DNA from: Gavia stellata
Taxonomy: Eukaryota > Chordata > Aves > Gaviiformes > Gaviidae
Assembly (NCBI RefSeq): GCF_030936135.1
Contig: NC_082597.1
Span: 76,614,495-76,678,494 of the forward strand
Direction of reading: 5' to 3'
DNA length: 64,000 nt
The position numbers were made by a program, and so were the translations under genes. Within the stretch, counting starts at the first letter, position 1, and the number at the start of each line of letters is the position of its first letter. Below are positions 3,361 through 59,540 of the stretch, piece by piece. The notes under the pieces were generated by a model, which saw only the letters and a program-made list of their open reading frames with translations, did not search any database and was not told where the DNA came from.

Positions 3361-6300
3361 CTGCAGCAATACAGAAAGAGTGTTAGACACGTGTGCATAA
3401 CAAGAGAAAGTTATTCTGGTGCGAAGGAATGTGGTAGTATGGCATGACAATCTAACCACCAAAAAGCCCGTGTTGCTTTGTACTAATATGAGCAGGAAGA
3501 GGAAGCATTAAAAAAACACCAGTCAGTGTAACACACTTTTGCTCTTGCTTTATGAACACCTGGCGTTACTCCTATGTTGAGGCACTTGGCATATTGGCAG
3601 AGGGTTGCCAAACCTGGCCGCTCAACAGAAGTGAGGATGCCACAGCTCCCTGTCCCCAGGTCCAACCATTAACAAGGCTGAGCATGTATGTCCAGCAGGC
3701 ACGCACACGGACCCACATACAGAACACATGCCCACGTGGCTGGCCACACTGATCAACACAGACAGATACTCCCACAAACAGCACCGATGGCCTCATCCTG
3801 TTCCCCTCCCTGACCGATCAGGATGAAGGTCCATTAGTGGGAAGTACATATACACACATGCGTATAAGGTGGATCCACAAGTAGCTGGCTTAGTCTTCGG
3901 AGCAGCTGTCCCCAGACTCCAGTCTCCCCAGTTGCTGACATCTGGACATACAAGCCACTGTTGCACAGACCCCTTCAGACACCATTGCATAGGCTGTGGA
4001 CCCCCAAGTAATTTGAGATCTCACACTTGACCACAGACCCCACTCTCTAGCAGCTGGCCAGGACCCCCCAGCCCCTCCCGCAGTGGTCTCACCTTCAGAG
4101 ATGTACACACACCTGGCTCCCAGGCCACCTCACCTACTTGCTGGCTAGTCCATCTTGATCTTTGCTAGGCACCACACACTCGTGCTGGGTGCTGGCACCA
4201 CAGACACACAGGCCCTCCGACCTGCGGTCTGGCTCCAGGCACTAGCACTTACACCTCCACACAGACAGGTGCATGCAAAACAGCATCCCTTCCCTGGGAA
4301 AGCAGCTATGGAATTTAACCAGGACACGGGACAGACTGCAATGACTGGTTGCAGGATGCAGCCAGACAAAGGTACAGAGCAGGCCTGTTTACGCAGGGTC
4401 AGCCTTTTTTATCCCTTTATCCTTTTATTTTCCCCACATTTGTTCCTCCCTGAATGGCCTCGATCCCTGCCTTTGGTTCCTCCCCTAAACATCCCACAAC
4501 CCCCAAATGCTCTTCCCCTTCATCCCGTGCCCCCACAGCCTGCAAGGGGAGCCAGCCTCCCACTGACACATGCAGATGGGCACCACCCCTGGCCCGCAGG
4601 GCAATGGCTCCCCCAGACAGCTCTGGGAACCGTTGGGGTCATTTCTCCGAGTGGGTTATTAGGACTCCCCTGCCTGACAGTACCTCTGTGCTCCTTTGTG
4701 TGCAAATGTATGGAGATAAGCCTTCATGAGTTGGCTGCTCTCCTGTGATGGGCCTGACAGTAGCCAGGTCAGGGTATCACCCAGGTTACCCATCCACCAT
4801 TGTGCCTCTCTGCTCCTTGGTGCACCCAGGTGCAGACAGGTTCCTCAACCACGTCACCTAACGCGCACCACTGCTTTGGGCCTTTTATATCACAGTGCTT
4901 GGAGGCAGACGGAGACATGGTCATGTAGCCTGCTGCAGGAATGAGCCGCTGCAACTATAGCTGCGTGGACAAGAAGGAAGGAAGATGTCACCTCCCCGGC
5001 CCAGTGCCATACACCCTGGGCACTGGTGGGTCTACAGGGCTGAAGATGGGTCACCTGCAGGCTACTGCCAGGCCCATGCTCAGCTAGAGGCCTGTGCCAT
5101 CATTTCTAGTGCCTGGTGCCAGGGACAGTCCTGTTCCTATGGGGTTAGATAAGCTCTACAACAGCCAACAAAGTCACCTGCATAGGTAGACTTGGTCCTA
5201 ACTTAGGACAGGACAATAAACTGAACAACTACTTATAAAAATCCTCTCCAACTCTGTAATTTGTTATTCAATGCTTTAACAGAGGAGAGGGAAAAAACAT
5301 GACCATAGCAGAAAAAAAGCAAATACTAAGATTCTTAGATTGCATTCAATGCACCAACTACCTGGTTAGTTTTCACTTTCATTTTCTGTTAAAGGGATCC
5401 AACTAGTCTTTCAGAAGCACATTTCTGCGAGTGTGGCAGTTCTCAGGAGGCTATACAAAAACATCCTACATTATTATTACTAAAACTGTGGCAAGTGTAA
5501 AATAAAAAAAAGAAGGGGCCAGCATAAACTCTCTCTTCCTAAAATGCTGCTGTACAGGTTTAAAATATATCAACACTGGGTATAGCTTGAAGGCACACCA
5601 CACCATACACACTGCATTTTTCACTTTTATTTGAAAATACTGAAATAGCTCCACACAGGTTGTTTCTGAAGAAGCTGAAGTTTACAGGAATGTTATTCCT
5701 TATTCCTGCAGATCTACCAGATTACTGCAGCTCCATGAAGAACTTTTGTTACCAACACACAAAAAGAGGGGGGAAGGAGTAGAGTTATTTAAGAAAATGA
5801 CAGAGCAACAAGTGAATGAGACCTGGTGAAGATAGCAGAGACCTGGTGGAGATGGCAACCTGAATCTGTAGCAGATGATGATTCAAATAAGATATTAATA
5901 TGTTAAAATAAACTAGTTTCATTCACAGATGTGGCTATCTAAAATGGACCAAAACAAAGTGCAGCTGTGGTCTAGCAAAATTGCAGTTGAAAATGGGAAT
6001 TAAAAAAACTTAGGCTCAGTCCCAACTCCAATACCAATGTATGTCAGTAGCAGATGATCAGGAAGGCAGGAGGAGAGTGGAGTTCAAAATACCATCCCTG
6101 CAAGTCAGCTTCTCCACCTGTATGCAGAGATAAATGTTTTCTCCCATCTTCGCAAATCATTTTTGGGTTATCAGATGTCAAATGAAAACTACCACAGCTG
6201 TTCAATAAATGAGATTAATACACTCTTTCCCCAAATGCGAATAATCAACACTTTTTGAAGTAATGCACCAGATCTGAGTCTATTGGAACAGAATACAGTT

Positions 6301-7991
6301 TAATTTTGACAAACACTTTTAACACAGTGTTAGCCTCACGGAAGGCTATTTGTTATTCATGGTCAATTAGTGCAAAAGCCTCACGGGATTTAGCCTGGAA
6401 AGAAAGAGCACACCCACTAATTCAGATAGCTATTTTAGTTCCTTACTCAGAAGGTATCAGCTGGTAGGCAGAAAAAAAGAGGAAGAACTGAAGGCTGAAT
6501 GATTACAAGAAATTATCCTTGCTAAGAAATACATTCTGAGGGTTAAAAGTGATCTATATATTCTTACCGCAGAGTATTGTCAAGACATTAATGAAGATAA
6601 CAGCACTGCAACCATGGAAGCTGCATCAGATCTACAGCAGCAGAGGGAGCGACTGGCTGACCATAAGGCCACAAATCACTAAATGAAGACCTGGTGACTC
6701 ATAGTTTCCAGTTGCACAAATCTTTGTTAACAGAGCTCACAAAATAAGTAACTGAGCAGGAATTTTTATTAATGGAAACAGACCTTCATAGGATAACAAA
6801 AGAGGCCACAAAAAGCCGAAAAGCCATTGCATGGAGATTGCCAGCCCTTTCCACTAGGGCGTGGTGAGCAAAACACAGTTAAACGTGTAAGCTTATGGCA
6901 GGACACTCCATCGCCAAACTGCCCTACAATCACACAAACCAAAGGCTTCTTTGGCAAGAAAAGACTTGCACCCTCAGCTCCAATCCCCCCTCCCTCATTC
7001 AAACCCTATTTTTAAGTGATCTTAGTTAAACATTCTTCTCATCTGTTTCAGAAAACGATGAGAGGATTAAGAGACAGGCATTTCTTCACTTCTGCAGTTT
7101 TAGCATCTGCCTCATCCTCTTCTGTTCAAGTAACCTAATAAGCAGCTGTACCCAAACTAGTATATGTTGCATCCACCTCCGTCCTGCTCCTCTCACAAAA
7201 CCAAAGCCAGAAATGTTTGAGCAGGTGCATCAGAGGAAAGAAACGATGTGCCAGGCAGCTGCTAAAAGAGGGTAACGATGCATGCTACACATAATAGCAC
7301 TGCAAACCCACCGCTCAGCAGACATGATGCCGAAAGAGCTCTCCGCTGCAACAGCAGCTGCCAGGCGAGTGGTTTTAAAAGCCATCAGCACAGACGTTGA
7401 AAAACTATTCAAGGAACTGAGAGAAGAAAAATGCAGACACCGTGGCAGCCAACACAGGCACCATTATCCCACAGAACAGAGCCGTGGGTGCCCACGCTGG
7501 CACACACCCCCCTGCCCACGCCCGCCACGAGAAGGTCCCAGAGCTACCGCACTGCTGTGGGGGGATGCAGGCGGCTCCCAACACAGGCACCCCCGTTTGC
7601 CCTCCCGAGTGATGGGTACATGGCAAGGGAGGCAGCAGGGGCCTCGAGCACCCTGTGACACCACCCAACGGCCTCCGCTCTGCCCAGGCACCCAGAGACA
7701 GCCCGCGCCGGGGCCGCTGGGACTGGCGGAGCGGCCGCGCCCGAGGCGCAGCGGACCACCGCGCCTCTCCCCTCGCCCGCGGCCTGGCCTCGGGGCCTCA
7801 GCTCGGGGCCTCAGCTCGCCCAGGGCCGTGTCGGGAGAAGCAGGGGAGGGGCAGAAGGCAGCGCCCCGGCAGCCCAACCGCCCGCTGCCGAGAGGCGGAG
7901 GGCCTGCTTCCCGCCTCCATCCCCCCGCCCCGGGGCCCGGCCGCCCCCGCCGGGGGTCGGGCGCACTCACCGTGCTGAGCTGCGCGCCCAT
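3229..7991 (-). CDS. CYB5R3: NADH-cytochrome b5 reductase 3, 5' part (exons 1 and 2)
   Basis: The coding sequence is complement(3229..3360, 7971..7991), continuing beyond the left edge. It encodes the first 51 residues of the membrane-bound NADH-cytochrome b5 reductase, the FAD enzyme that passes electrons from NADH to cytochrome b5 on the ER and outer mitochondrial membrane. Visible parts are MGAQLST (Gly2 is the known myristoylation site in the family), a hydrophobic anchor of about 20 residues (LGRVVTYPIWLIYTTILRLF) and the start of the FAD-binding domain (PAITLKDPEVKYALRLIDKE). Exon length, phase-0 junctions and residues match the mammalian protein, whose second exon also starts LG and ends RLID(R/K)E. 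The start is the ATG at 7991 inside a CpG island. The FAD and NADH domains proper lie outside the window, so integrity of the whole gene cannot be judged. Confidence 0.93.
3570..4760 (-). mobile_element. LTR-like dispersed repeat, copy 1
   Basis: The reverse complement of this stretch aligns by eye with 36.13-37.06 kb over most of its length. Shared blocks include GGAACCAAAGGCAGGG, CTAGCAAAGATCAAG followed by GGCCTGGGAGCCAGG, CTTGTATGTCCAG followed by CAGCAACT, and GGA(A/G)CAGGATGA. Both copies have a TTAAATTCC block at a similar place that could be a polyadenylation signal. A TATAAAAG box lies further upstream on the same strand (around 4.88 kb), so the element may be longer. It sits antisense to the plus strand inside CYB5R3 intron 1. 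The family and exact ends are unknown; LTR is inferred from the signal layout. No coding capacity is seen. Confidence 0.5.
5818..5857. repeat. 20-bp tandem duplication
   Basis: Two 20-bp units starting GAGACCTGGTG differ at two positions. They lie within CYB5R3 intron 1. Confidence 0.85.
7971..7991 (-). CDS. CYB5R3: CYB5R3 coding exon 1
   Basis: Seven codons, MGAQLST, are followed directly by the donor GTGAGT. This is identical to the mammalian myristoylated N-terminus of the membrane isoform. It is too short to be found as an open frame; it is recognised by sequence identity, phase and CpG island position. Confidence 0.92.
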
Positions 7992-8104
7992 CGCTGCCCC
8001 CTGACAGAAGCGACAGCACCGCCCGCCCCGCCCCACGACGTCGGCACGGCGCCCCGCCAACCAGCTCCGCGCCGCTACCGCCCCCTGCTGGCCGCCAGCT
8101 GGTT

Positions 8105-8118
8105 CCCCCCCCCCCCCC
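8105..8118. repeat. Poly-C run (C14)
   Basis: Fourteen consecutive C residues lie in the CpG island upstream of CYB5R3. Such a run is prone to length change and to sequencing error. Confidence 0.9.
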
Positions 8119-8229
8119 GCTCCCGGCGCGGGCCCGTCCGACCCGGCCGGCGCCCGCCGAGGCCGCGGCGCGGCCGCCAGGCGGCGGCCGCTCCCCGCTG
8201 AGGCGCCCGGGGCGGTGGCCGCTGCACCC

Positions 8230-8283
8230 GGGGCCGGAGGTCGGGGCCCGGGTGGTGGGGCCGGAGGTCGGGGCCCGGGTGGT
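8230..8283. repeat. 27-bp perfect tandem duplication
   Basis: Two identical 27-bp units (8230-8256, 8257-8283) starting GGGGCCGGAGGTCGGGG lie in the CpG island. They are G-rich and could form quadruplex structure. This is probably a recent duplication. Confidence 0.9.
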
Positions 8284-8642
8284 GGGCCCCGGCGCTGGGC
8301 CCTTCGCCCGGTGAATACGCGGCGGGTCCCGCTTCCCCCTGCAGAGGTGGGGGGAAGTGGGGAGCGGGGTGGGAGAGGCGCTGCCGCCGTTGTTTCGGCT
8401 ACTGCGCCCCTGGCCGCTCGCTCTGGGGAACCGCGGCCTCCGCGTACCGGCGCCCTGAGGCGGCGCACCTCGAAATGGCCGCGGGGCGCGGCTGCCCGCA
8501 GGCGGGCTGGCAGGGCGGTACCTCCCGGTGCCTGCGCAACTCGCAGCGGGAGGCGTGGAAACCACACAAAAAACGAAATCCTGTAGTCATCGTTGCGTGT
8601 GTGCCTTCCGTGCTTCTCCCCACCAACGCAGAAGACAGGCAA

Positions 8643-11600
8643 GCCTGATTTTTATTAGTGCCACCACTTCGGGGAGCCTGCCCTTATTGTAGTATTATAC
8701 CGCATACGTTAACACCCTTTTGCCCTTTATTAACTGCACAAATAATGATGTGGGAAAGCAAGGGTAATAAAATGACAGTATCTTTTCTTCTTTAACCAGC
8801 AATCGAAGCCCCGCTATCTTTTCGCGACAAGAGGAGGATAGCTTTTGTATGTCAACACCACAATTCATTATTATAGCACATAAGCCTTAACTTCTGCTAG
8901 TACTGCTTCAGAGCCAGCACCTGCACACAACACAGAGTAAGGAGAAAGGTGCTTGGGTGTCAGGATGCCCTGCACTGGCACTTCTGAATCCTGTGAATCG
9001 ACTCCATCTCATCTAGGCCAGTGATGGCCAACAGCCTGATTGATTAATGGAGACATTTATCCAAAAAGCACAAAAACCGAGCTGTGCAACAAGAATGGAT
9101 GTTTCAGCCAGACCACCCAAAATTTTGGTGTACATCGATGTGTACAAATTAATGACTAATAAGTAAATGCATCTTTCTGTCTGTGCTAAACGTGAAACGC
9201 TTCAAAGCTCTTTAATTAATGTCTTAGCTTGCAGTAAACAGGCCTCGATGATTCCTAGGTACAGTTTCTCCTTAAAAAATCAAGGAAGGCATATGCTTGA
9301 CAGTCCTAATATTAAGATTAAAAAAAAACTAATAAAAAATTTCTTCCCTTAGGCCCTCAGCTCACATAGTGGTACTGAGCCACCTGCACCCCCAAGCACT
9401 TGCTTTCTTCCAGCCTCTGCATTTGCTGACTGTGCAGGCAGCTCATCTGGCTGTGAGAACATTCATAAGCCAGTCATGGTTTACCTAGTTAACTTGGAAA
9501 TTAGCACTGGTAAATAAAGGCAGGTTAACAGACCAACCTAAAGTTAAGCAGGTCACGTCACTGCAGTCTAGGTAAAGACATTTAGCTGCAGGAATGGAGT
9601 TACTTATTCCTGGCATTTCTATGACGAGAACATGCCTGGCTGTGTAATCCTCTTGCTTGTCTCTTTGAGGACAGCTGCTGCACCAGTAACTCCGGAGTAA
9701 GTGAAGGGATTATAACACCATTGGCTAGAGAGAAGGACTTCAGGATTGAGATGATGGGGCTTAGGAAACTGGGGAGATAACTAAGAGACAGGCTGGGCAC
9801 AGGGGCCATGGAGCTTGGTCGGAGACCATCTGTCAGGTGAGCCTCCAGTTTGAGAATTAGTGCTTAGGGAAGGGTGGAGACCCTAAAGTCCCTGCTTCCT
9901 GCTCTCAGTGAGCTCTGACCTTGCTAGGTTCCTGCTGACCAGCCTGAGCTGTATCTCCACTGCTTTTCACTGTTGGTCAGCTTGTGGAGACATGGTTGCA
10001 ATAGCCAAAGCTCCCATGAGAATGTCCAATAAACTCAGTTTCTCAGAAACTTTCCTCTTCCCTATATCCACGCACAAAAAGTGACCCAAAGGCCTGCTCT
10101 GGCTTCTCTGGGGAAAGGACTGAGCCTGCTGTAGATCCGCATGGTGTTTTTTCTAGCTGCCAGCTTTTACTCAGTCTCCCTGAGGGAGCTTGTCCAGCGC
10201 AAATGTGTCCTTCATGCATGTGTGAGCCCTGCCTGCTTTGGTCTGGAAGCCTGTAAATCACAGTGTTCTCGCTCACCCCCTCTAGATCCACCAAAGAGGT
10301 TTAAATTAACTCTGAATGAGCCCTTTCCTTCTTCAGGGAAGTTTAGGCACCTGACTAGAGGTGACAAACCAGCACTTACCCACTGGCCACCCTGGTTAGA
10401 AAAGAAAAATACTTAGGCCAGTAACACACAGAGATGCCTACATGCTTTAGAAACAGGCCTTATTCACAGGGTTTCCTTAACCCTTGACCTTGGCAAAGGT
10501 CTGCATCCAATGCTTGAGGTGGCAGTTTTTTTAGGCTGAGTGTCTTTGCAAGTCTATTGACCCATTCGTTTGGAAATGCTGTTCACGTGTGAGTGAGACA
10601 GTGCCAAATACTCTCCCTGTTCCCTTGTGCCAGAAAAGAAGACCAGAGCAGCGGGAACCTGACCTCAGCTCCTGTGCAACAAACATACACTGCCCTGTGC
10701 AATGGGTTTGACAAAGCATTGCCTGGTCTCTTCAGTGCAAAAAGCCAACCCACGGTGTGAGCAAGGCCACTCTCTGGACACTGCCTGCATTAGACCCGGG
10801 AACGGCCCAGATTCTGCACTGATCTCATTTGCCTTTCATCAGTTTCTGTTGGCAAATGCACCCTTTTACACTCTTTGGGATCCTTAATTTTTTCTTAGCT
10901 CAACAGCTAAAGCATAGGACAGAAGTTTTACAACAGATTTAAGTACATGTTTGGTTATGAAATCACTAGTGATGCTACTGATCTGACCTGTAATTTTATC
11001 AAAGATTAATTTAAATCCGCTGTCTCCAGTGATGCTGCTGCTTGTAAATGGAAATTCCCTGGGCTCCCATCTGGGCTCTTTCTGCTGATGAGAATAAAGG
11101 AGTTGCAACTTTGTTATGGACAGAATATGCCCACTGGCTTTTGTATTTTAAATGAAAGCCTAAGAAAAGACTTCCTGCATTCAGCTGATAAACACAGGCA
11201 CTGTATTTTTGTCATTTATCTTGCTTACCCAGAACTGCAATAAATACAAACAAAAAATGGTAAAGAAAAAATTCTGTTAAAATTAAGGATATTCAATTTT
11301 GAGATACATTAATTTCCCCTACCAGTGTCAGAATGAAGCTTCACTTTTAAGTGACATGCTAGCTGCATGTCTTGTCTGCCAATTTCATGTGGCAGGCATC
11401 CTCATTACCTGCAGCTTGCTTTGGCTCGAATATGATTCTTTGACAGGATACATGGACCAGAGGTGCAAAACCATTTGTATAACTGATAGCCTAATATCAA
11501 ACCATTTCGGCTTCTGTATATACATATATACAGTTTAAACCTAAAGCTATGTTTTTCAGGAATTAATTATTATGAAGAAGAAAATTTTAAAAGTATCAAT

Positions 11601-24009: not shown

Positions 24010-25092
24010 TCACATTACAGGCCTTGACTGCTCTTCAGAGTCCTTCTTCATCTTTGCATATGTAGCAGGACAGAACTGAGAATGCAGCTGAGCCAGCAAA
24101 GCCTGGGATGTGATCTCTAGCCTTGTCCCGTGGCTCAGTTTGTTCCATACGTGCACTGCATAGGTGTTCTTAAGGAGCTTGTGAAGTTCCAAGGAGCTGA
24201 TTGCTTCAAATAACTTCTTCCAGTCCTCCCAGCGAATAGGATAAAAGGCTTCTGGGGAAAGAGCATGCACCCCTTTGCAGCTCATGTTGTTCTGGATATT
24301 ACTGATGGAGCACCACTTCTTGAAGACACGCGTTAGGAGTCCTGGGCCCTGGTGCGCCCAGATCCAGCCATTGTAGTTCTCCACAAAGTCTTTCATGCAA
24401 AGCTCCATGAACTCATGGTTGGATTTGAAGGACAGAAAGGCCCCGTTCAGTACACCCTGAGACTGGATACCAAGGGCATTGGTGAGGTTCTTCAAGTTCC
24501 TAAGCACAATGAAGTCTGTGTCCAGGTAGATGCCACCGAATTTCCACATGATGGCAATTCTGCAGGCGTCAGACAGGACAGGTAAGAAATAAGGTTCCTT
24601 CTGGTGCTCAGACTGCAAGTACCACTTTGCCAGAGGTGTTCCAGAGAAAAGCTCTGGCAAGTCCAGGGGACGGATTTCCACGTTGGGGAAGCAGCTCAGC
24701 AACGAGAAGCCCCAGTGGTTGGGTAACGAAGTGTTACAGTTTGCCAAGCCTTTCATGAGCACCACAACCCTTGTCCCAGGGTGCGTCCTGGCCGCTGACT
24801 CCACAGAGCATGTGAACAGGTAACTTGGGTTAGTTCGCTCCGAGGTCTCCACAAAAAACACATCCCCTGGGGCAGGAGGGGGCCCACTGGCAGTGGGACG
24901 GGGAAGGCAAGGCAAAAACTGAGCACACCTGCTTTGTGTAGGCAAGCTGTAGAGCTGGTCTTCAGCATCCTCCCCAGTTCTCGAGTACAACATGACAGTG
25001 GCAAAGAACACAAATGAAATGGTGAGGATAAACAGAGCCTTGAGCCTGTGGCTCAGCACCACTGTGGTCAGTTCTGGCAGGCGGTTGGACAT
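24010..25092 (-). CDS. A4GALT: Alpha-1,4-galactosyltransferase, divergent tandem copy 1
   Basis: A single coding exon of 360 residues; human A4GALT has 353. It is a Golgi type II GT32 enzyme that adds galactose in alpha-1,4 linkage to terminal galactose (Gb3 and P1-type glycans). A short cytosolic tail is followed by one hydrophobic segment (about residues 18-36), a Pro-rich stem and the catalytic domain with the DTD motif at 191-193 within FGGIYLDTDFIVL. Conserved sequons are N120 (NTS) and N202 (NLT), with an extra one at N269 (NMS). The start at 25092 follows a splice acceptor (CTCCCCTTCAG, exon from 25147) and aligns with the human start; the open frame further upstream is intron. Compared with copy 2 it changes TQSKYVL to IQSQGVL just after the DXD motif and GHQGPQLL to AHQGPGLL. 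No breaks are seen. It may have altered specificity or be a weaker enzyme; activity is not provable from sequence. Confidence 0.9.
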   Translation of the reverse strand: MSNRLPELTTVVLSHRLKALFILTISFVFFATVMLYSRTGEDAEDQLYSLPTQSRCAQFLPCLPRPTASGPPPAPGDVFFVETSERTNPSYLFTCSVESAARTHPGTRVVVLMKGLANCNTSLPNHWGFSLLSCFPNVEIRPLDLPELFSGTPLAKWYLQSEHQKEPYFLPVLSDACRIAIMWKFGGIYLDTDFIVLRNLKNLTNALGIQSQGVLNGAFLSFKSNHEFMELCMKDFVENYNGWIWAHQGPGLLTRVFKKWCSISNIQNNMSCKGVHALSPEAFYPIRWEDWKKLFEAISSLELHKLLKNTYAVHVWNKLSHGTRLEITSQALLAQLHSQFCPATYAKMKKDSEEQSRPVM

Positions 25093-25147
25093 CCTGGGCA
25101 GTCTCGCTCCCGTCAGAGCCTGCTCTCTCAAGAAAACCCGTCGTGAT
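25093..25147 (-). other. A4GALT: 5' UTR end and splice acceptor of A4GALT copy 1
   Basis: On the minus strand TTTCCTCCCCTTCAG precedes ATCACGACGG at 25147, a strong acceptor. Both copies have the same acceptor and a UTR of about 55 bases before the ATG, so each coding exon is spliced to upstream noncoding sequence, as in mammals. Confidence 0.75.
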
Positions 25148-25900
25148 CTGAAGGGGAGGAAAGAAGAAAAAGACACTGACAGGCAAGGCAGCAGACCACG
25201 AGCCTTGGGACAGTGCCACGGCAGAAAAGAACTCTCCTTCCTTCACCTCAGGGCAGCATGCTTAAATTATGCCTTTTGGTCACTTCTGAAACAGTCTCCT
25301 GGCTTCTCTCTATTGTCACAGGGCCTTCAGGTCCCACATCAGAAACTACTGCCCATCTGTGGATCCCTCTCTTTCAAACACAAAATAAGGACAAGTCTCT
25401 CCTTTCTGTATATGACAAACCAAGACTGATCCTCAGTTCTGTCCTTGTATATTGTCCATGTAAGTTCTGCTTGCCACTTGGAAGGATGTACAATATTTGA
25501 CACACAAATGGCATACCTTCATGATGGTGCACAACAAACTCTGGGAATAGTATTAGAGACTTTATCTACCATCTTCTAGAATTTCAGGTTATTCTGGACA
25601 TGAGACATATATGCCAAAAACCCCAGGACGAGGAAATAGGAATGCTCCTTATGAATATTCCTGGAGCTCTGTCAATAGACATTGTGTGGAACTGCTGCCC
25701 TGATTAAAGTTTTTTCTCATGATGAGAGGTTTTTCCCCAACACACAACCTGTCCTTCCCCAAAACCAAACACAGTATTAAAACACCAGTGCTGTCATCAG
25801 TTCCTATCAAGAGGCCTCAGTCTCCCAGGCTGTTGAACCAGCAGTTGCTGCCTTTTGAAATCAACCACCCGCCCCTACAGAAAACCTGGCTCATTTTTCA
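25148..25900 (-). other. Duplicated flank upstream of A4GALT copy 1
   Basis: The segment is homologous to 35543-35755 and then 37085-37520 upstream of copy 2. Shared blocks include AACTCTCCTTC, ACAAACCAAGACTGA, TGCTTGCCACTTG and CCTTCCCCAAAAC. It shows that the duplication unit included intron sequence beyond the coding exon, and it marks where a 1.3-kb insertion interrupts the copy-2 side. Confidence 0.7.
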
Positions 25901-26374: not shown

Positions 26375-26690
26375 CACAAAAGCACGTGAAGAAGCAGCGA
26401 GGAGGATTGTGGCTTTTAGGACGAGAGGAAATGGCCTCAAGTTGTGCCAGGGGAGGTTTAGATTGGATATTAGGAAAAATTTATTCACCGAAAGAGTTGT
26501 CAAGCATTGGAGCAGACTGCCCAGGGAAGTGGTTGAGTCACCATCCCTGGAGGTATTTAAAAGACGTGTAGATGTGGCAGTTAGGGACATGGTTTAGTGG
26601 TAGGCTTGGCAGTGTTAGGTTTACAGTTGGACTCGATTAGCTTCAAGGTCTTTTCCAACCTAAATGATTCTGAGATTCCTCCTGCCTCCC
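26375..26690 (+). mobile_element. CR1 LINE 3' end
   Basis: This has the typical avian CR1 3' region: GGTTTAGATTGGATATTAGG, AGACTGCCCAGGGAAGTGG, CCATCCCTGGAGGTATTTAA and GGTCTTTTCCAACCTAAATG, ending in ATGATTCTGAGATTC (the short CR1 terminal repeat). It is 5'-truncated, as most copies are. Confidence 0.93.
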
Positions 26691-28346: not shown

Positions 28347-29790
28347 ACCTAGTCACAGAATCACAGAGGGGCTGGGGTTGGAAGGCACCTCTGGAGATCA
28401 TTTGTGCAACCCCTCTGCTCAAAGCAGAGTCACCTTGAGCAGGTTGCTCAGGACCGCGTCCTCTTGGCTTTTGAACTTGCCCGAGGACAGAGACTCCACA
28501 ACCTCTCTGGGCAACCTGTTCCAGTGTTTCACCACCATTTCTTTCATTCTAACTTCCCGTATTTCAATTTGTGCCCATTGGGTCTCATCCTGTCACTGGA
28601 TTCCACAGAGAAGAGTCTGGCTTGTCTTCCTTACCCCACCCATCTCCAATCAGGTATTTATACACTTTGACAAGACACCCCTCGAGCCCGCTCTTCTCCA
28701 AGAAAAATGATCAGAGCTCTCTCAGCCTCTCTTTGTACGGCGCATGCTCCAGTCCCTTTCTCATCTTAGTGGCCCTTCGCTGGACTTGCTCCAGTATGTC
28801 CATGTCTCGCCTCTACTGGAGAGCCCAGAACCAGCACTCCAGATGTGTCTCACCAGTGCTGAGTAGTGGGGAAAGATTGCTTCCCTTGGCCTTGCAGGCA
28901 ATGCTGTACATAATGCAGCCCAGCAGGCTGTTGGCTGCCTTTGCCACAAGGGCACACTGCTGGCTCCTGGTCAACTTCTTGTCCACAGGTGCATGGAGTT
29001 TTCTCTCACCAGTTGCATCTCTCTTTGTTGAACTTCATGAGATTCCTGTTGGCTCGTTTCTCCACCTTGTTTAGGTCGCTCTGAGAGGCAGCTCAACCAC
29101 CTTATTTATCAAACACTCCTCCCAGTTTTGCATCATCTGCAAACTTCTCAAGGTTGCATTCCATCCCATCATCATCAAGGTCATTAATAAAGACATTAAA
29201 GAGCACTGGCCCCAGCACAGATCCCTGGAGTGTACTACTAGTTACTGGCCTCAGCTGGACTTTGTGTCACTAATCACAATCCTTCAAGTCCAGAAGTTCA
29301 GTCAGTTTTCAAATCCACCTCGCTGTGTTTACCTAGTCCACATTTCATCAATATGTCTACAAGGCTGTTATGGAGACTGTGTCTCCATACATACTAAAGT
29401 CGCAATAAACAATATCCAATGCTCTTCCCCTGTCCACTGAGCTCGTCATTTCATCATAGAAGGCTATCAGTTTAGCCAGGCATGATTTCCCCTTTGTAAA
29501 TCCATTCCGGCTACTCCTAATCACCTTCTTGTCCTTAATATCTTTGCTGATGACTTCCAGAAGGATTTGCTCCATTACCTTCCCAGGGGTCAAGGTGACA
29601 CTGTCTGGCCTGTAGTGCCCTGGATCCTCTTCCTTGCACTTCCTGAAGACAGGCAAGATAGGAGTGACTTTTGCTTCATTCCACTTCCCCAGGTCTCTAC
29701 GACCTTTCAAGCATAACAAAGAGTGGTCTCACAATGACATCAGCCAGCTCCCGCAGCACTCACAGATGCATCCCATCAGATCCCATCATC
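28347..29790 (-). mobile_element. CR1 LINE, about 1.4 kb with degraded reverse transcriptase
   Basis: Read on the minus strand this is the 3' part of CR1. It starts on the plus strand with AGTCACAGAATCACAGAGGG, GGCTGGGGTTGGAAGGCACC, ACCTCTGGAGATCAT and CCACAACCTCTCTGGGCAAC, and ends with CTCACAATGACATCAGCCAG and GGATGCATCCCATCAGATCC-like phrases. A 120-codon open frame (29357-29719) shows reverse-transcriptase text such as WNEAKVTPILPVF, EDPGHYRPDS, GKVMEQILLEVISKDIKD, NGFTKGKSC and LIAFYDEMTSSVDRGRALD. Stops and frameshifts elsewhere show it is dead. Confidence 0.94.
29357..29719 (-). pseudogene. CR1 reverse transcriptase fragment
   Basis: An open remnant of CR1 ORF2 within the element above. 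The YRPDS, GKVMEQ and NGFTKGKSC motifs identify the reverse-transcriptase domain. The flanks are out of frame or interrupted, so no functional protein is expected. Confidence 0.9.
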
Positions 29791-34414: not shown

Positions 34415-35488
34415 TCACTGCTGTTCGTAGTCCTTCTTCATGATATCGTACGTGGCAGGGCAGAAGTGAGAATGCAGCTGAGCCAGCAAAGCCTGGGATG
34501 TGATCTCTAGCCTTGTCCCTTGGCTCTTCTTGTTCCATACATGCACTGCATAGGTGTTATTAAAGAGGTGGTGAAGTTCTGAGGAGCTGACCACTTCAAA
34601 GTATTTCTTCCAGTCCTGCCACCGAATGGGATAAAAAGCCTCACGGGGCAGAGCACTCACTCCTTTGCAGCTCGTACTGCTCCGAAGACTCCTGATGGAG
34701 CACCACTTCTTGAAGACACGTGTTAGGAGCTGTGGGCCCTGGTGCCCCCAGATCCAGCTGTTGTAGTTCTCCACAAAGTCTTTCATGCAAAGCTCCATGA
34801 ACTTGTGTTTGGGCTTAAAGGACAGAAAGGCCCCGTTCAGTACATACTTGGACTGGGTACCAAGCACATTGGTGAGGTTCTTCAAGTTCTTAAGCACAAT
34901 GAAGTCTGTGTCCAGGTAGATGCCACCGAATTTCCACATGATGGCAATTCTGCAGGCGTCAGACAGGACAGGTAAGAAATAAGGCTCCCAGCGCTGCTGA
35001 GCCTGCAAGTACCACTTTGCCAGAGGTGTTCCAGAGAAAAGCTCTGGCAAGTCCAGGGGACGGATTTCCACGTTGGGGAAGCAGCTCAGCAACGAGAAGC
35101 CCCAGTGGTTGGGTAACGAGGCGTTACCGTTTGCCAAGCCTTTCATGAGCACCACGACCCTTGTCCCAGGGTGCGTCCTGGCCGCTGACTCCACAGAGCA
35201 TGTGAACAGGTAACTTGGGTTAGTTCGCTCCGAGGTCTCCACAAAAAACACATCCCCTGGGGCAGGAGGGGGCCCACTGGCAGTGGGACGGGGAGGAGAA
35301 GGCACAGAGTGAGCACAGCGGATTTCAACAGGCAAGCTGTAGACCTGGGCCCTGCCCTTAGAGTCTTCCGTGATTCTCCAGTACAACACGATGGAAGCAA
35401 ATGACATGAACTTAAAGGTGAGGATAAACAGAGCCCTGAGCTTGTGGCTCAGCACCACCCTGGTCAGTTTTAGCAGGCAGCTGGGCAT
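34415..35488 (-). CDS. A4GALT: Alpha-1,4-galactosyltransferase (Gb3/P1 synthase), copy 2
   Basis: A single coding exon of 357 residues (human 353). It is a Golgi type II membrane enzyme that transfers galactose from UDP-Gal in alpha-1,4 linkage to terminal beta-galactose. It has one hydrophobic segment at about residues 18-37, a Pro-rich stem, DTD at 193-195, sequons N122 (NAS) and N204 (NLT) at the human N121 and N203 positions, and Q212 at the human Q211 position that governs acceptor range. The GHQGPQLLTRVFKKW block is unchanged from human, so this copy looks orthodox and functional. The ATG at 35488 aligns with the start of copy 1 and has A at -3. Two in-frame ATGs in the same exon (35509 and 35497) could add 7 or 3 residues. 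The exon starts at 35542 after CTCCCCTTCAG. Confidence 0.95.
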   Translation of the reverse strand: MPSCLLKLTRVVLSHKLRALFILTFKFMSFASIVLYWRITEDSKGRAQVYSLPVEIRCAHSVPSPPRPTASGPPPAPGDVFFVETSERTNPSYLFTCSVESAARTHPGTRVVVLMKGLANGNASLPNHWGFSLLSCFPNVEIRPLDLPELFSGTPLAKWYLQAQQRWEPYFLPVLSDACRIAIMWKFGGIYLDTDFIVLKNLKNLTNVLGTQSKYVLNGAFLSFKPKHKFMELCMKDFVENYNSWIWGHQGPQLLTRVFKKWCSIRSLRSSTSCKGVSALPREAFYPIRWQDWKKYFEVVSSSELHHLFNNTYAVHVWNKKSQGTRLEITSQALLAQLHSHFCPATYDIMKKDYEQQ

Positions 35489-35542
35489 CCTGAGCATTCT
35501 TGCTCCCATCAGAGCCTGCTCTTCCAAGACAACCGTTGTGAT
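35489..35542 (-). other. A4GALT: 5' UTR end and splice acceptor of A4GALT copy 2
   Basis: This is homologous to 25093-25147. The acceptor CCTCCCCTTCAG precedes ATCACAACGG at 35542. It carries two in-frame ATGs that copy 1 lacks or has mutated. Confidence 0.75.
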
Positions 35543-35766
35543 CTGAAGGGGAGGAAAGAAGAAAAAGACATTGACAGGGAAGGCAACAGACCATGAGTCT
35601 CAGGACAGTACTATGGCAGAGCTGCATGCTGAACTCTCCTTCATGCCGGCATGCTTGAATTATGCATTTAGGTCATCTTTAAAAAAGCACCCTGGCTTCT
35701 CCACGCTGCCACAGTGCCCACAGGGCCCCATCAAAAACCACAGTCCATGTTCAAGTTGTGAGGTTA

Positions 35767-37057
35767 TGTGACGAAGCTCATCTGCACACCCACAAAAAGC
35801 TCAGAGAGAGACAATAGCAGGAGGGGGACCTCAAATATACCCTGCCAGGCTACTCCCAGGCCCATCAGCCCATCAAAGGCCCATCTGCCCAAGCCCAGAG
35901 GAGCACAGGAGCACAATGGCAGGCGGGATCCCAGATCAAGGACTCGGGAGGAACCAGCACCTTGTCTGGGCCCCTCCCAGGGCTGTCCCAGTGTTCAGGC
36001 ATGAAACCCATCACCACAGTCACCAGAAGCAGCTCTCCAGATCACCTTTCGGGCTAAGGGGGTCAGTGCCTAGGGGTGGGACATATTATAAGGTGCAGGA
36101 GAAGAACAGTTTGGAATCACACAGGACTTACGAGATACTTAGCAAAGGAACCAAAGGCAGGGCAAGGGAGGGGCTTAGGTGATTTTGCGAGGAACAAGAG
36201 TGGGAAAATAGAGATGTAAGGGAATAACAAGGGCCAGACATAGGTAAATAGCTTGCTGGTCAGTATGCTTGTCTGGCTGTGCCCTGCGCCGGGATCAGCG
36301 CAATGTCTCTTGTCATCTTATTAAATTCCTTTCTGATGCTTTCCTGGGTGAGGGCTTTCAATTCTGTGTGCGTATCGAGGTGTGAATGCAGCAACTGGGG
36401 TCAGACCACGGGTCAGAGGGCCGATGTGTGCCAGCAACTGGAGTGAGTGTGGGTGTGCAAGTGTGCAACGGCTAGCAAAGATCAAGTGGACCAGCCTGTG
36501 AGTATGCAAAGTGGCCTGGGAGCCAGGAGCATGAGTGGGTCCCTAAGGGTCAGCTCTGGGTGTGAAAGCACCTGTATGTCTCCAAGGGAGAGAGTACAGG
36601 AGGGTCGGCTATGGGACATGGAAAGTCCTGGCCAGCTGTGTGTGTGTGTTTGACGGTTTGTACCAGCAACTGGAGTAGGACTGGAGCCTTGGGGACTTGT
36701 ATGTCCAGGTGCCAGCAACTAGTGAGACTGGGATCCAGGGGCAGCTACTGGGCTGAATGTCTAAGCCCAGCTGCTGGAGGGATCCGCCTTGTACATACAT
36801 CTACGTATACTCTCACTTGTGGACTTCCATCCTGTCCAGCCAGAGAGGGGAGCAGGATGAAGCTGTTAGTGCTGCCTATGTTCATGTGGGTGCTCTGAGT
36901 GTCTGCCTGTGATCTGTACGGCCAGCCATGTATATGTACATATATACACGTAGTGTAAACGTATGCTTTGTGTGCGTGTGCCTGCTGAATACATCTTCAG
37001 CCTCACTACTGTCTGGACATGGAGCAGCAGCAGTCTCACCTCTCTCAGGCTGTTGCA
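35767..37057 (+). mobile_element. LTR-like dispersed repeat, copy 2 (insertion upstream of A4GALT copy 2)
   Basis: The about 1.3-kb segment interrupts sequence that is continuous upstream of A4GALT copy 1, so it is an insertion. It contains TATTATAAGG (36084), ATTAAA (36320) and a GT-rich right half, and it probably ends in CA at 37057. Ends are approximate; no clear target-site duplication was found. The right 0.9 kb is shared with the element in CYB5R3 intron 1. Four versions of CAGCAACT(G/A) recur at about 36387, 36432, 36663 and 36711. No protein is encoded. The LTR identity is inferred from the TATA and poly(A) layout. Confidence 0.5.
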
Positions 37058-37084
37058 TCTGGTATGATATATCGTCCTTTAGCA

Positions 37085-37520
37085 AAAATTACTCTCCTTC
37101 AAAAACAAAATAGGGTCAAATCGCCCCCTTTGTTTATCACAAACCAAGACTGACCCTTACTCCCCTGGATGCATACTGTGCTTGCCACTTGTAAGGAAAT
37201 ACAGCACTTACTCCATTTTATCTTCATCAGTCCATTATTTTCAAATCAGACATGTACAGGAAGAATCCTAGATACTAGGATTTTAGATTCTCTTTTGTCG
37301 TCCAGTTTGCTGCTACTACACTAATGATCCTGACACCTGACAGTGAGTGGGACAGCTGCTTCTGAGGTGTTTCACTTCCCCAGAGAATAACCACCTGCCA
37401 GCCTTCCCCAAAACTGAGAACTCATCTAAAACCCCGGTGCTATCATCTGTTTCTGTCAAGAGGTCTCAGCTCCCAGAATCACAGAATGGTACTTGTTTCC
37501 CTTCCATTTATTCCTCGATA
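37085..37520 (-). other. Duplicated flank upstream of A4GALT copy 2 (distal part)
   Basis: This resumes the homology with the copy-1 flank after the insertion. AAACCAAGACTGA, GCTTGCCACTTG, CCTTCCCCAAAAC and TCAAGAGG(C/T)CTCAG are shared with 25.37-25.83 kb. Confidence 0.7.
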
Positions 37521-46400: not shown

Positions 46401-47940
46401 CATGGGAAGCGCAACCCTTTAGGGAGCTAAGTGACAGTACAGCTGTGCTGATTTACTGAGGGGCTGCCAGTAAAGACAAGAAGGGTGTCCCCAATCTCTC
46501 CTGCCATCACATACTGGAATGTGATCCAAACCACAACAGCACTGATGGCAACACATATCCAACGCTATACACGGCTCATCTGGTCTCCCCTCTATATATG
46601 GAACAGGCACATCTGCATGGTTTTATATGGTAATTGCCCTGGCAAACAGCTGCTTGTCTTTATGCTAATGACCAAACAAATGCAATGGAAGTAAGATGGA
46701 AGTAGAATTACTCATAAGTACCTCATGCCAAAGTATCCGCTGATGACATGACAAAACCAAGACCATGGCTAATTGTTGCTAAAGCAAGTGGCCCCACTCC
46801 CTTCCTCCTCAGGCTCTTCCCTGACACTCCTCTGACCCTGCTTTGACTACCCCTGAAAGCTAAAGCACCAAAAAGCCCGCTCTGCTGAAGGATTTGATTT
46901 TCTTACTGGTTTAGCTCCCAGAACTGGTTTTGCTCTACCGCAGGGTGAGACAGGCACAAACATTGTCACAGAAAGAGATGCAAGAACAGGCAGCCAGGAG
47001 GCTGCAGCCTTTTAGTACCACCAAACCTAGCTCCGTGGTAATGCCAAATTGCACACTGAGGCCTTCACAGTCCAGAACTACTGAACTTGGCCCCGTGATA
47101 CCCCTGATCAGGAAAATCTTTATTAGAGCCACTGTCCGAAGGAGACAGCTAATGCCTTGAGCACGAGCGGAAATCCTGTGAGAAGGAAAACTTGGGGCGT
47201 AGCTACCAGCTGCTACCTGAACTCACATCTAAAACTAATTCATGGCAGGCAGATTGCTATTCACCCCGTATCACATCCTCCGGCCCTCAAGGATGACTGC
47301 CATTTTTGCGTTACCAAACGAGGGGCACGCAAACAAGAGAAGGGCCTTCACATACGGCTTCCTAGTCGGTGCTTCCACAGATGCTGCCGGAATTGCCGCA
47401 AGAACCAAAAAAGGGGAATTTGAGTTCTCCGAGATTTGCTCCTCTGACTTCCACGGCAACAAAAACCATGAGTAATAGTGCAAAACCATCGGAGCTCAGC
47501 AGAAGCTAGAGAGGGTTTCTTCAGGGTTAAGAAACATCCAGCCTATTCTGAGCAACTTCTCATGCACTAGGAAACAACATGTTAGTTTAGCTGGGTAGTT
47601 CATTCACAGCCAAAGCTTCTAAATTCGCCATCTTTCAGCAGCATTACTAGTTTTAGGTTACTACAGTTACAAGAGTTAGGTATTTTCTTACGCCTCTTTT
47701 GCACAGGCTTTTCTTCCCCCTCTCGCCACAGCAAGCATTTCTACAGCTCTATTGCGATTCTCCATCTTTCTTCCTCAGACCTTATCCCTGCTCAGACCCC
47801 GACGTTCTGCAGGGCACGTCCGCCTGGGAATATGATAGCCAACTGCACTCTCCCCTGTCACCAGTTCTGCTGTCTTTCCACCCTCTCACCCAAGCCAGCC
47901 TGTCACCGCTGGCAGAGAGGAGCTGCACATTTCTCCATCC
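43430..47940. other. No gene recognised; GC-rich patches
   Basis: A small CpG-enriched patch lies at 43.43-43.57 kb and a GC-rich, repeat-like stretch at 44.0-44.75 kb. The rest is ordinary. Open frames on both strands around 44.1-44.8 kb overlap one another and look compositional. Confidence 0.5.
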
Positions 47941-48360
47941 CATCTGACCCTTTCCTCTTCATCCTCCCACCACGCTGCTGCCATTCACCTGGATCCACAG
48001 CTTCAGCATTCGAGTAGTCCTTCTCAGGTGGGATGGAGCCCCCTCCGCCCGCAGCACACGCGGACACTGTACACGCAGCTCCCTTCCCCGTGGCTGCTAT
48101 ACGCAGCCGCACCCTCGCCAGCTCCCTCCGACAGCGATGCCTGCACAGCAGAAACCCTCTCAAAGCTGTGTAGGGATCCGAGGGAAGCTCCCCTTCACAA
48201 CCCGCAGCCGAAATGCCTTCCCACCACCGGGAGGGACACCCCCCTGCCCGCCTGGACCGCAGGAACCGCCATCTGCAGAGCTCCCACCGGGCAGGGCAGT
48301 GGCACGGAGCCAGCTCAGAGCCGCCCGGGGGTCCCGGCTGAGGGCGGCCGTGCGCGGCCG

Positions 48361-48400
48361 CCCCCCCCCGCCCTGGCAGCCCCCCCCCCGCCCTGGCAGC
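48361..48400. repeat. 20-bp perfect tandem duplication with C9 runs
   Basis: Two identical 20-bp units, CCCCCCCCCGCCCTGGCAGC, lie in the CpG island. Confidence 0.95.
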
Positions 48401-48724
48401 CCTCCCGGCCGCTGCGCCCGACGAGGCGAGCGGAGCCGCCGTCCCGCGAGCAGTCGGCTCCAACCCACACCTAAGGGCTGCCCACAGGGCGGCTGCTGGC
48501 CGGCACCGCGGTGGACGGGGACGCGCTGCGCTCATGGAAAATCTCCCCGTGGAAAAATACACCTTTCCCCGAGCGGCGACGGAGGACGAAGCCACCCAGC
48601 CCCGCCTGACGAGCAACCGAGGCCCGCGTCCCCCTCGCCCCGGCTGCACCCGGGCGCCGTCGCGGGGCTGCGCCGCCCGCCCCGCAGCTCCGGCCGCGGC
48701 CCCCGGCCCCGCGCCCCGCCTCAC

Positions 48725-48790
48725 CTCCCGGGCCGCCGCTCTGCGCCCGCCGCGAAGCGCCGCTCCCTCCCGCAGCCCCGGGCATCACCG
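48725..48790 (-). other. Candidate noncoding first exon with donor
   Basis: On the minus strand the segment ends GGCCCGGGAG before GTGAGGCGGGG, a good donor. The 5' limit is unknown. It could splice to the acceptors at 35542 and 25147. Inference only. Confidence 0.3.
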
Positions 48791-48871
48791 ACGGCGCCCG
48801 CCCTCCCCCGCCGCCCCCCGCCGGTCCCGCCTCCGGACGGGCCCCGGCCGCCCTCTCCCAGGGGCCGCCCC

Positions 48872-48901
48872 GTCGGGTCGGGTCGGGTCGGGTCGGGTCG
48901 G
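48872..48901. repeat. (GTCGG)6 pentanucleotide microsatellite
   Basis: Six perfect GTCGG units, each with one CpG, lie in the CpG island. Likely length-variable. Confidence 0.95.
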
Positions 48902-49330
48902 TCCAGCCAGAGCCGCCGGGGAAACGGAGCCGTTACTCGCCAGAGCCGCCCCCGCGCCCCGGGGCGGGCGGCATCGCCCCCCCCGCCCCCGACGGCACCG
49001 AGGAACGGCTCCTCCCTGGGCAAGGGGGGGTGGATTGGGGTTTCTTAATTCGGAATATACCATTTCAAATTGCCGTAAGGCTTTTTTTCCCTCGCGCTCT
49101 CCTCCCCACCTCCAGGAATTGCTCCTCTACCCCGGGGCCGGTAATCTGAGCCACGCTGTTCACCGCAATTTTACCTGTGGTCACGCTATGACGCGTGAAG
49201 CGGAGCGCAAGTCACGGTGCGTGTCGGCGCTTGGTAGCGCATCGCCCGCGGCCGGTGGGGCGGCAGCGGGGACGGCTGGTGGGGGATTAACCCGACCCTC
49301 ACGGCCCGAGGGGCTGGGGAACGACGGGCA

Positions 49331-49654
49331 GGAGGAGCAGGCGAGGATGGGCGCTTCCTACATCGTTTGACGCCAAGGGAGACGATTACAAGGCTAACAC
49401 GGAATCAACGGTGATGTGAGACCGAACAGTTTAGTTAAAAAAAAAAAAATCAGCCCGCAGATGAGCTGCTTACATGTTGCAAAGCAAGTTTCGTATCTAC
49501 CCTCAGGAAGGAAGAAGTTTTGCCTAAATTAATCCTGGCAAATTATTGCTTAACAAGTTCTTAATGAGCGTGAATAAAGAAGGGAAATTTGGGCTTTCAT
49601 CTAGAAAAGAACCTTTGACTGCAAGGCGGTTAGGGGGTGGAGTAAACTGTGTGG
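49331..49654. other. Downstream edge of CpG island, nothing recognised
   Basis: AT-rich sequence with an A-run near 49.44 kb. Confidence 0.5.
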
Positions 49655-58894: not shown

Positions 58895-59540
58895 GGGATC
58901 ACCAAGTCCGGCAGTGAGCGCTTGCAGCCCAGAAAGCCAACCGTATCCTGGGCTGCATCAAAAGCAGCGTGACCAGCAGGTCGAGGGAGGTGAGTCTCAC
59001 CCCCAACTCCGCTCTGGTGAAACCCCACCTGGAGTACTGCGTCCAGCTCTGGGGCCCCCAACATGAGAAGGACGTGGACCTGTGGGAGTGAGTCTGAGGA
59101 GGGCCACGAAGACGATCAGAAGGCTGGAACACCTCTCCTATGAAGACAGACTGGGAGAGTTGGGGTTGTTCAGCCTGGAGAAGAGAAGGAGAGACCTATT
59201 GCTGCCTTTCAGTACTTAAAAGGGGCTTATAAGAAAGATGGGGACAAACTTTTAGCAGGGCCTGTTGCAATAGGACAAGGGGTAATGGCTTTAAGCTGAA
59301 AGAGGGTAGATTTAGATTAGATATTCAGAAGAAATTCTTCACCATGAGGGTGGTGAGGCACTGGAACAGGCTGCCCAGGGAAGTTGTGGATGCCCCAACC
59401 CTGGAAGTGTTCAAGGCCAGGTTGGATGGGGCTTTGAGCAACCTGGTCTAGTGGAAGGTGTCCCTGCCCATGGCAGGGGGGTTGGGACTAGATGATCTTT
59501 AAGGTCCCTTCCAACCCAAACCTTTCTATGATTCTATGAA
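58895..59540 (+). mobile_element. CR1 LINE 3' part, about 0.65 kb
   Basis: Typical sequence: CATCAAAAGCAGCGTGACCA, CACCTGGAGTACTGCGTCCA, GCTCTGGGGCCCCCAACA, TTCAGCCTGGAGAAGAGAAG, GGCACTGGAACAGGCTGCCC, AGGTTGGATGGGGCTTTGAG and AAGGTCCCTTCCAACCCAAA, ending TTCTATGATTCTATGA. It is the least diverged CR1 in the window. It is 5'-truncated and noncoding. Confidence 0.96.

Follow-up and report, generated by a model that had tools for sequence, protein, structure and literature searches.

Two A4GALT genes lie in tandem in a 64,000-nucleotide stretch of the Gavia stellata (loon) genome, contig NC_082597.1 (hereafter the window). They are nearly identical across the middle of the coding sequence, which holds the catalytic core, and differ much more at both ends. 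A first-pass annotation, made from the letters alone, read this as recent gene conversion. Have the two copies exchanged sequence, has the core been held by constraint, or have the copies been merged in the assembly; and, if they exchanged sequence, does one event in the loon suffice?

The tandem pair and its surroundings

The genes and the putative splice acceptors ahead of them are as follows.

24010..25092, minus strand: A4GALT copy A, the duplicate (Neoaves type), 360 aa, single coding exon (ORF, PF04488 and PF04572)
34415..35494, minus strand: A4GALT copy B, the conserved ortholog, 359 aa from the ATG at 35494 or 357 aa from the ATG at 35488 (ORF, Pfam)
25143..25175, minus strand: 33-bp identical run, a pyrimidine tract plus AG ahead of the coding exon, putative 3' splice site of copy A (from the motif)
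35538..35570, minus strand: putative splice acceptor of copy B, partner of 25143..25175 (from the motif)

Both copies carry PF04572 and PF04488 (160.7/164.3 and 64.3/66.9 bits, against curated cut-offs of 22.3 and 23), and the DXD motif, here D191-T-D193, is invariant in 51 aligned sequences. Relatives were the best 120 of 331 and the best 120 of 393 matches, representatives of 90% clusters, which gave a pool of 132 relatives plus the two proteins from the window. Copy A and P0001, an incomplete A4GALT protein of Gavia stellata, show 99% identity, residues 74 and 276 being the sole differences over the overlap; against 55 non-passerine bird proteins (P0002-P0056) among the best 120 of 331 matches, copy A shows 78-89%. 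Its identity to the B proteins of barn owl (Tyto), harpy eagle (Harpia) and cormorant (Phalacrocorax) is 75%. Among the matches listed, copy B is 92% identical to A4GALT of these same three birds and 80% identical to that of turtle, and is therefore taken as the conserved ortholog. The A copies form a clade with support of 100 in a protein tree of the N- and C-terminal parts (N+C), and copy A is assigned to a duplicate that is present in many non-passerine Neoaves; the Galloanserae among the matches listed (Cygnus, Tympanuchus, Meleagris) are B-type. A fold model of copy A has a mean pLDDT of 70.3 and places a helix at residues 5-42, the region of a possible membrane anchor, with a mean pLDDT of 49-78 over residues 1-40.

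The copies lie head-to-tail on the minus strand about 10 kb apart, copy B being the upstream one. Homology between them runs over 24027-25356 and 34417-35748 at 85.2% identity, and further pieces match at 25367-25433 and 25753-25828 (37092-37157 and 37402-37476 in copy B). Because the duplicated unit takes in the putative 3' splice site and intron, the pair probably arose by tandem duplication at the DNA level and not as a retrocopy. Comparison of the 64-kb window with itself revealed no third A4GALT copy.

The remaining window sequence is described here for completeness. Between the matched intron pieces, copy B has about 1.3 kb (35749-37091) that is absent from copy A; parts of it (36146-36527 and 36696-36874) recur inverted at 3779-4481 with 65-73% identity, and the extra DNA looks like an inserted dispersed repeat. 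The stretches 26417-26678, 28353-28536 and 59271-59539 are 69-71% alike and probably form one repeat family. At 7276-8651 and 47586-49370, clusters of long ORFs overlap on both strands and are accompanied by tandem repeats rich in G+C (8122-8302, 48361-48406 and 48872-48901); both regions look like CpG-island-type stretches. The five ORFs tested from these stretches had no Pfam match, nor did a Pfam scan of 10 window ORFs besides A4GALT give any, and an Rfam scan of the window gave no match at the gathering threshold.

The homogenised block and its divergent island

The features of the block, and of a second identical run, are listed below.

24477..24904, minus strand: putatively converted tract of copy A, residues 64 to about 205, with the DTD motif at 191-193 (two-rate segmentation and dS)
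34867..35294, minus strand: partner of the tract in copy B (alignment to the copy A tract)
24595..24612, minus strand: divergent island within the tract, 18 bp with 8 mismatches, covering SEHQK (residues 161-165) and a silent difference in codon 166
34985..35002, minus strand: the island in copy B, AQQRW (alignment to the copy A island)
24077..24129, minus strand: second identical run of 53 bp in copy A, a possible small B-to-A tract (B-type H337 in copy A)
34467..34519, minus strand: partner of the 53-bp run in copy B (identity to 24077..24129)

The first-pass annotation had matched 24501-24594 to 34891-34984 without a difference and 24613-24904 to 35003-35294 with four mismatches, and our recount reproduces both figures exactly (94 of 94 bases identical; 4 mismatches in 292). 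It had also called the N-terminus about half identical and the C-terminal part clearly different: the first 63 residues are 52.4% identical, and residues 198-360 are 77.2% identical, against 94.8% in the block (residues 64-197). Silent sites, which it had taken to be equal inside the block, are near-equal but not exactly so, with 3.5 synonymous differences in 96.5 sites, compared with 12.5 in 44.5 upstream and 27.5 in 96.2 downstream. The corresponding dS values are 0.352 upstream, 0.037 in 24501-24904 and 0.360 downstream. Synonymous divergence along the gene, which it had set as a check, is thus anything but uniform, and the tenfold fall within the block upholds its argument that protein constraint alone is insufficient.

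When codons were permuted, none of 20,000 permutations attained the observed score of the synonymous-poor segment; a longest-run test on silent sites in its simple form gave P 0.013. In a nucleotide alignment of 1326 columns the best two-rate segment is 24477-24904, with 13 mismatches in 428 columns against 176 in 898 outside (likelihood ratio 81.0). A GENECONV-like permutation test on the pair, a check that had likewise been proposed, returned a fragment at P ≤ 0.0005, the floor for 2000 shuffles, at each of four penalties. A hallmark of interlocus gene conversion is present: a tract of low dS with abrupt edges, sharp at the 5' side, where 138 identical bases run from 24904 and a strongly divergent stretch precedes them, and gradual at the 3' side. 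The 5' end is the cleanest part of the loon tract: over the 27 residues 64-90 the loon copies show no difference, and Tyto, auks, cormorants and rails show 4 to 9. The CpG observed/expected ratio is 0.35 and 0.46 in the block against 0.20-0.31 in the flanks; since this is only slightly raised, we make no claim of a hotspot.

The block is interrupted by an island that the first-pass annotation had overlooked. Of the 12 mismatches in 24501-24904, eight fall in 24595-24612, the 18 bp between its two matched parts (P about 7e-9 under random spread, for an interval chosen post hoc); seven of the eight alter residues 161-165 and one is silent, in codon 166. SEHQK or PEHQK is found in 29 of the 56 A-type sequences among the matches listed, loon A counted, which argues that the loon kept an old A-type motif while both sides of it were homogenised, and did not invent it. 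Among the same matches K165 occurs in 35 of 56 A sequences (34 of 55 without loon A) and W165 in 17 of 56, and all 10 B sequences have W165.

In within-lineage A-B pairs from five lineages, 12 of 55 island residues (156-166) differ versus 7 of 345 flank residues (121-155 and 167-200), a ratio of 10.8 (Fisher P 3.5e-7). Control ratios are 1.6 for B orthologs (53/495 versus 210/3105), 1.8 for reptiles, 1.3 and 2.3 for A-A pairs that share K165 or W165, respectively, and 3.0 for all A-A pairs; eight same-species pairs of A or passerine copies give 5.1 (33/88 versus 41/552). The A-B excess comes from loon and cormorants, with five differences each (barn owl 1, rails 1, auks 0), and the mousebird has AQQRW in both copies. 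Judged from these sequences, the island is apart in two of six lineages; in the other four it was either exchanged or altered. In other copy pairs the island differs at 5 of 11 residues (Ammospiza caudacuta, Ammospiza maritima, Patagioenas, the Colius A copies), 6 of 11 (Menura, two Vidua species), 4 of 11 (Pluvialis), 3 of 11 (Columba guinea) or none of 11 (Lonchura, Balearica).

We looked to A- and B-type residues for the direction of transfer in the main loon tract, and none was assignable. At its 5' edge, loon B has P66, a mostly A-type residue, which hints at transfer from A to B. In the 53-bp run, loon A has the B-type H337, shared by one of the 55 other A sequences among the matches listed (Leptosomus), and transfer there was possibly from B to A. 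Residue 74 is A in both loon copies, S in P0001 and A in none of the 74 other non-passerine sequences among the matches listed; the exchange that it hints at, later than a split from G. stellata, was not adopted, being drawn from a single site and from the supposition that the window belongs to another loon species.

Probable recurrence across bird lineages

The silent-site tests concern the loon pair, and other birds were compared as proteins. Across 16 A and 12 B sequences (three of the latter, Bubo, Guaruba and Bucco, have mixed C parts), mean A-A, B-B and A-B identities are 65.2, 77.5 and 48.8% in the N part and 83.0, 86.7 and 75.7% in the C part. In residues 64-197 they are 85.0, 86.8 and 85.1%: the orthology signal is gone from the block. 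Sites diagnostic of A or B number 21 in residues 1-63, three in 64-205 and 27 in 206-360.

Six lineages with both copies were compared: Gavia, Tyto, auks, cormorants, mousebird and rails, the auk, cormorant and rail pairs each drawn from two species or genera. Typical owls (the Bubo sequence is a B/A chimera), parrots (Guaruba is labelled low quality) and pigeons (an Alopecoenas chimera) were left out. An earlier matching analysis covered nine lineages and permuted seven, its C region giving 2/5040 with the Bubo chimera in the set. In residues 64-205 without the island, within-lineage A-B identity is 92.8%, compared with 86.4% for cross-lineage A-B, 85.7% for A-A and 87.4% for B-B pairs, and the true A-B matching ranks first among 720 (first among 120 once the loon is removed). 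In residues 91-205, again without the island, the own A-B pair beats all A-A and B-B ortholog pairs that its lineage forms within this set of six in five of the six lineages; the exception is the mousebird, whose pair (86.1%) is no nearer than orthologs. Residues 64-90 follow suit (79.6% within, 66.7% across, true matching best of 720). Residues 206-360 show a small within-lineage excess (75.4 versus 73.7%; 2/720 matchings), so exchange was not confined to the block, and in residues 1-63 of the six lineages the excess is absent (103/720 matchings).

The N+C and block trees were built from 47 protein sequences, several of the partner proteins coming from short, possibly chimeric contigs. The block rejects a single clade of A copies (AU p 0.006 without and 0.035 with the island), and N+C rejects one that joins loon A and B (p 7e-7). 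In the block tree without the island the A copies of Tyto, cormorant, rail and auk each pair with their own B, at supports of 85-94, none of them starred. The quick search had left the loon copies apart, and imposing a loon A+B clade raises the block likelihood by 15.0 without the island; in the quick block tree with the island, loon A sits among the A copies, unpaired with loon B. By these protein trees, the history of the tract is in conflict with that of the flanks. "Recent", as the first-pass annotation had it, holds for the loon tract, and its reading fits the dS drop, the sharp 5' edge and the tree conflict. It is incomplete as a single event: the same core is homogenised within the barn owl, auk, cormorant and rail lineages too, which makes the loon event look like one of a series.

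Mixed copies are found as well. The Bubo scandiacus and Alopecoenas proteins are outright B-type at the N-terminus and A-type at the C-terminus. In Uria B, several states at 206-246 are A-type, and Bucco has A-type states near its C-terminal end (the Bubo, Alopecoenas, Uria and Bucco sequences are P0057, P0066, P0067 and P0071). Among the matches listed, all 44 passerine-like sequences (41 with a passerine name) have more B-type than A-type states in residues 1-63 (of 21 sites, 9 or more are B and no more than 3 are A) and the reverse in 291-360 (7 or more A, no more than 2 B); residues 206-290 are mixed (17 either way, 10 ties). Passerines nest within Neoaves. In trees of 48 sequences, 13 of these 44 included, the N region places passerines outside the A clade (A alone 100; support of 64 for the alternative placement as sister to A) and the C region places them with A (99.6). 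Because B-type states are also ancestral, we infer, rather than observe, that passerine proteins are a B-type N-terminus fused to an A-type C-terminus. As B lies ahead of A in the direction of the genes, an intragenic unequal crossover would give just this order.

Explanations, acceptor choice and known systems

We favour recurrent interlocus gene conversion of the donor-site core, the loon tract included, as the account of this pattern, with a probability of about 0.88. An old A/B duplication, common to many Neoaves, would have been followed by repeated ectopic recombination between the copies, transferring the central part of the coding exon, which spans residues ~64-205 and contains the DXD donor-sugar site, and leaving the flanks without reciprocal change; conversion is preferred here to a double crossover, and the exchanges would have been independent in several lineages. 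The latest loon tract, 24477-24904, is young (dS 0.037 versus 0.35 outside). The Golgi-anchor/stem part and the C-terminal domain are still paralog-specific, as is the island at 161-165 in loon and cormorants. Selection for different acceptors (glycoprotein versus glycolipid, as in pigeon) perhaps keeps flanks and island apart.

Strong constraint on the protein and silent sites of the catalytic core, with no exchange, would agree with the DXD motif, with the many invariant residues of the block and with the likeness of the paralogs there in the birds compared. However, the block is no better conserved among orthologs than the C part is (B-B 86.8 versus 86.7%; for the turtle Trachemys against loon B, the block gives 81.3% and C 87.1%), about 27 synonymous differences would be expected at the outside rate where 3.5 are seen (P about 1e-9 for four or fewer in 96), and constraint cannot bring an A copy nearer to its own lineage's B than to the A copies of others; we consider it highly improbable.

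Short tracts of high identity between tandem copies are the typical place for assembly collapse; reads of both copies would have been collapsed or cross-mapped in the block, an outcome that the first-pass annotation had named as fatal to its reading. Yet 12 differences persist in the block, eight of them clustered in its middle; P0001, on a separate contig of 39,921 bases, has the same copy A block except at residue 74; and cormorants, with two sequences on contigs of about 219 Mb, show the same pattern. Judged from assembled sequence, an artefact is as improbable as constraint. Slightly less credible still is the idea that every lineage recently duplicated part of the gene, the core, on its own: this would likewise yield within-lineage similarity, but each loon copy has its two flanks, in matching order, the flanks show the old A/B split with support of 100, and the window holds no additional copy.

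If recurrent conversion is the cause, it may keep a common donor-site core working, with the segments that select acceptors or Golgi partners remaining distinct between the copies. In human A4GALT, D192 belongs to the DXD motif, Q211 is an acceptor-specificity residue and Q211E broadens the acceptors; the crystal structure is still to be solved (excerpted text of PMC11546571). We matched loon to human numbering by the DTD motif (human D192 to loon D191), which places the equivalent of Q211 at loon residue 210, just past the converted tract. Both loon copies have Q210, and residues 206, 209, 212 and 213 differ between them. As a separate observation, eight of the 56 A-type sequences among the matches listed (P0004, P0005, P0008, P0020, P0027, P0032, P0034 and P0042) have E at 210, the same substitution as human Q211E. 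In effect, evolution has marked out where the two enzymes remain distinct, and the segments spared from homogenisation are candidate determinants of acceptor choice, a matter still unsettled for human A4GALT (excerpted text of PMC11546571). The core will mislead phylogenies and ortholog assignments of avian A4GALT that rest on whole sequences, and this affects the account of the bird enzyme responsible for Gal-alpha-1,4-Gal on glycoproteins.

More speculatively, and with the odds somewhat against it, the locus may be a long-lived exchange system. The donor-sugar core would be continually shared across Neoaves, and the N-terminus, the island at 161-165, residues 206-213 near the human Q211 equivalent and the C-terminal domain would be a minimal acceptor-determining set held apart by selection; the passerine fusion of B-type N- to A-type C-terminus would stem from exchange or unequal crossover.

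Interlocus gene conversion is a known process. A case in avian A4GALT was not found in the literature searched, by title or start of abstract and with subscription papers mostly uncovered. Two of the closest known systems are themselves A4GALT genes. Pigeon A4GALT P and M, and A4GALT1/A4GALT2, are, like the loon pair, Neoavian paralogs, one acting mostly on glycoproteins and the other on glycoproteins and glycolipids; unlike the loon pair, P and M are 93% identical at the nucleotide level (excerpted text of PMC8466213). The terms "gene conversion", "duplication" and "tandem" are absent from the main text of that paper. Both Columba guinea sequences (P0048 and P0053) look A-type, and pigeon P and M may both be A copies. 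The zebra finch has three complete, near-identical A4GALT copies, in tandem as in the loon (excerpted text of PMC4377847). The songbird genes were interpreted there as an expansion, and "gene conversion", "chimer" and "fusion" are absent from the main text; the passerine proteins in our analysis, in contrast, appear to join B-type N-termini to A-type C-termini. Outside birds, GOT1p1 and GOT1p2 of Tigriopus californicus keep islands of divergence despite ongoing gene conversion between the paralogs, as in the loon, albeit in another gene and phylum and across populations rather than bird orders (excerpted text of PMC3728101).
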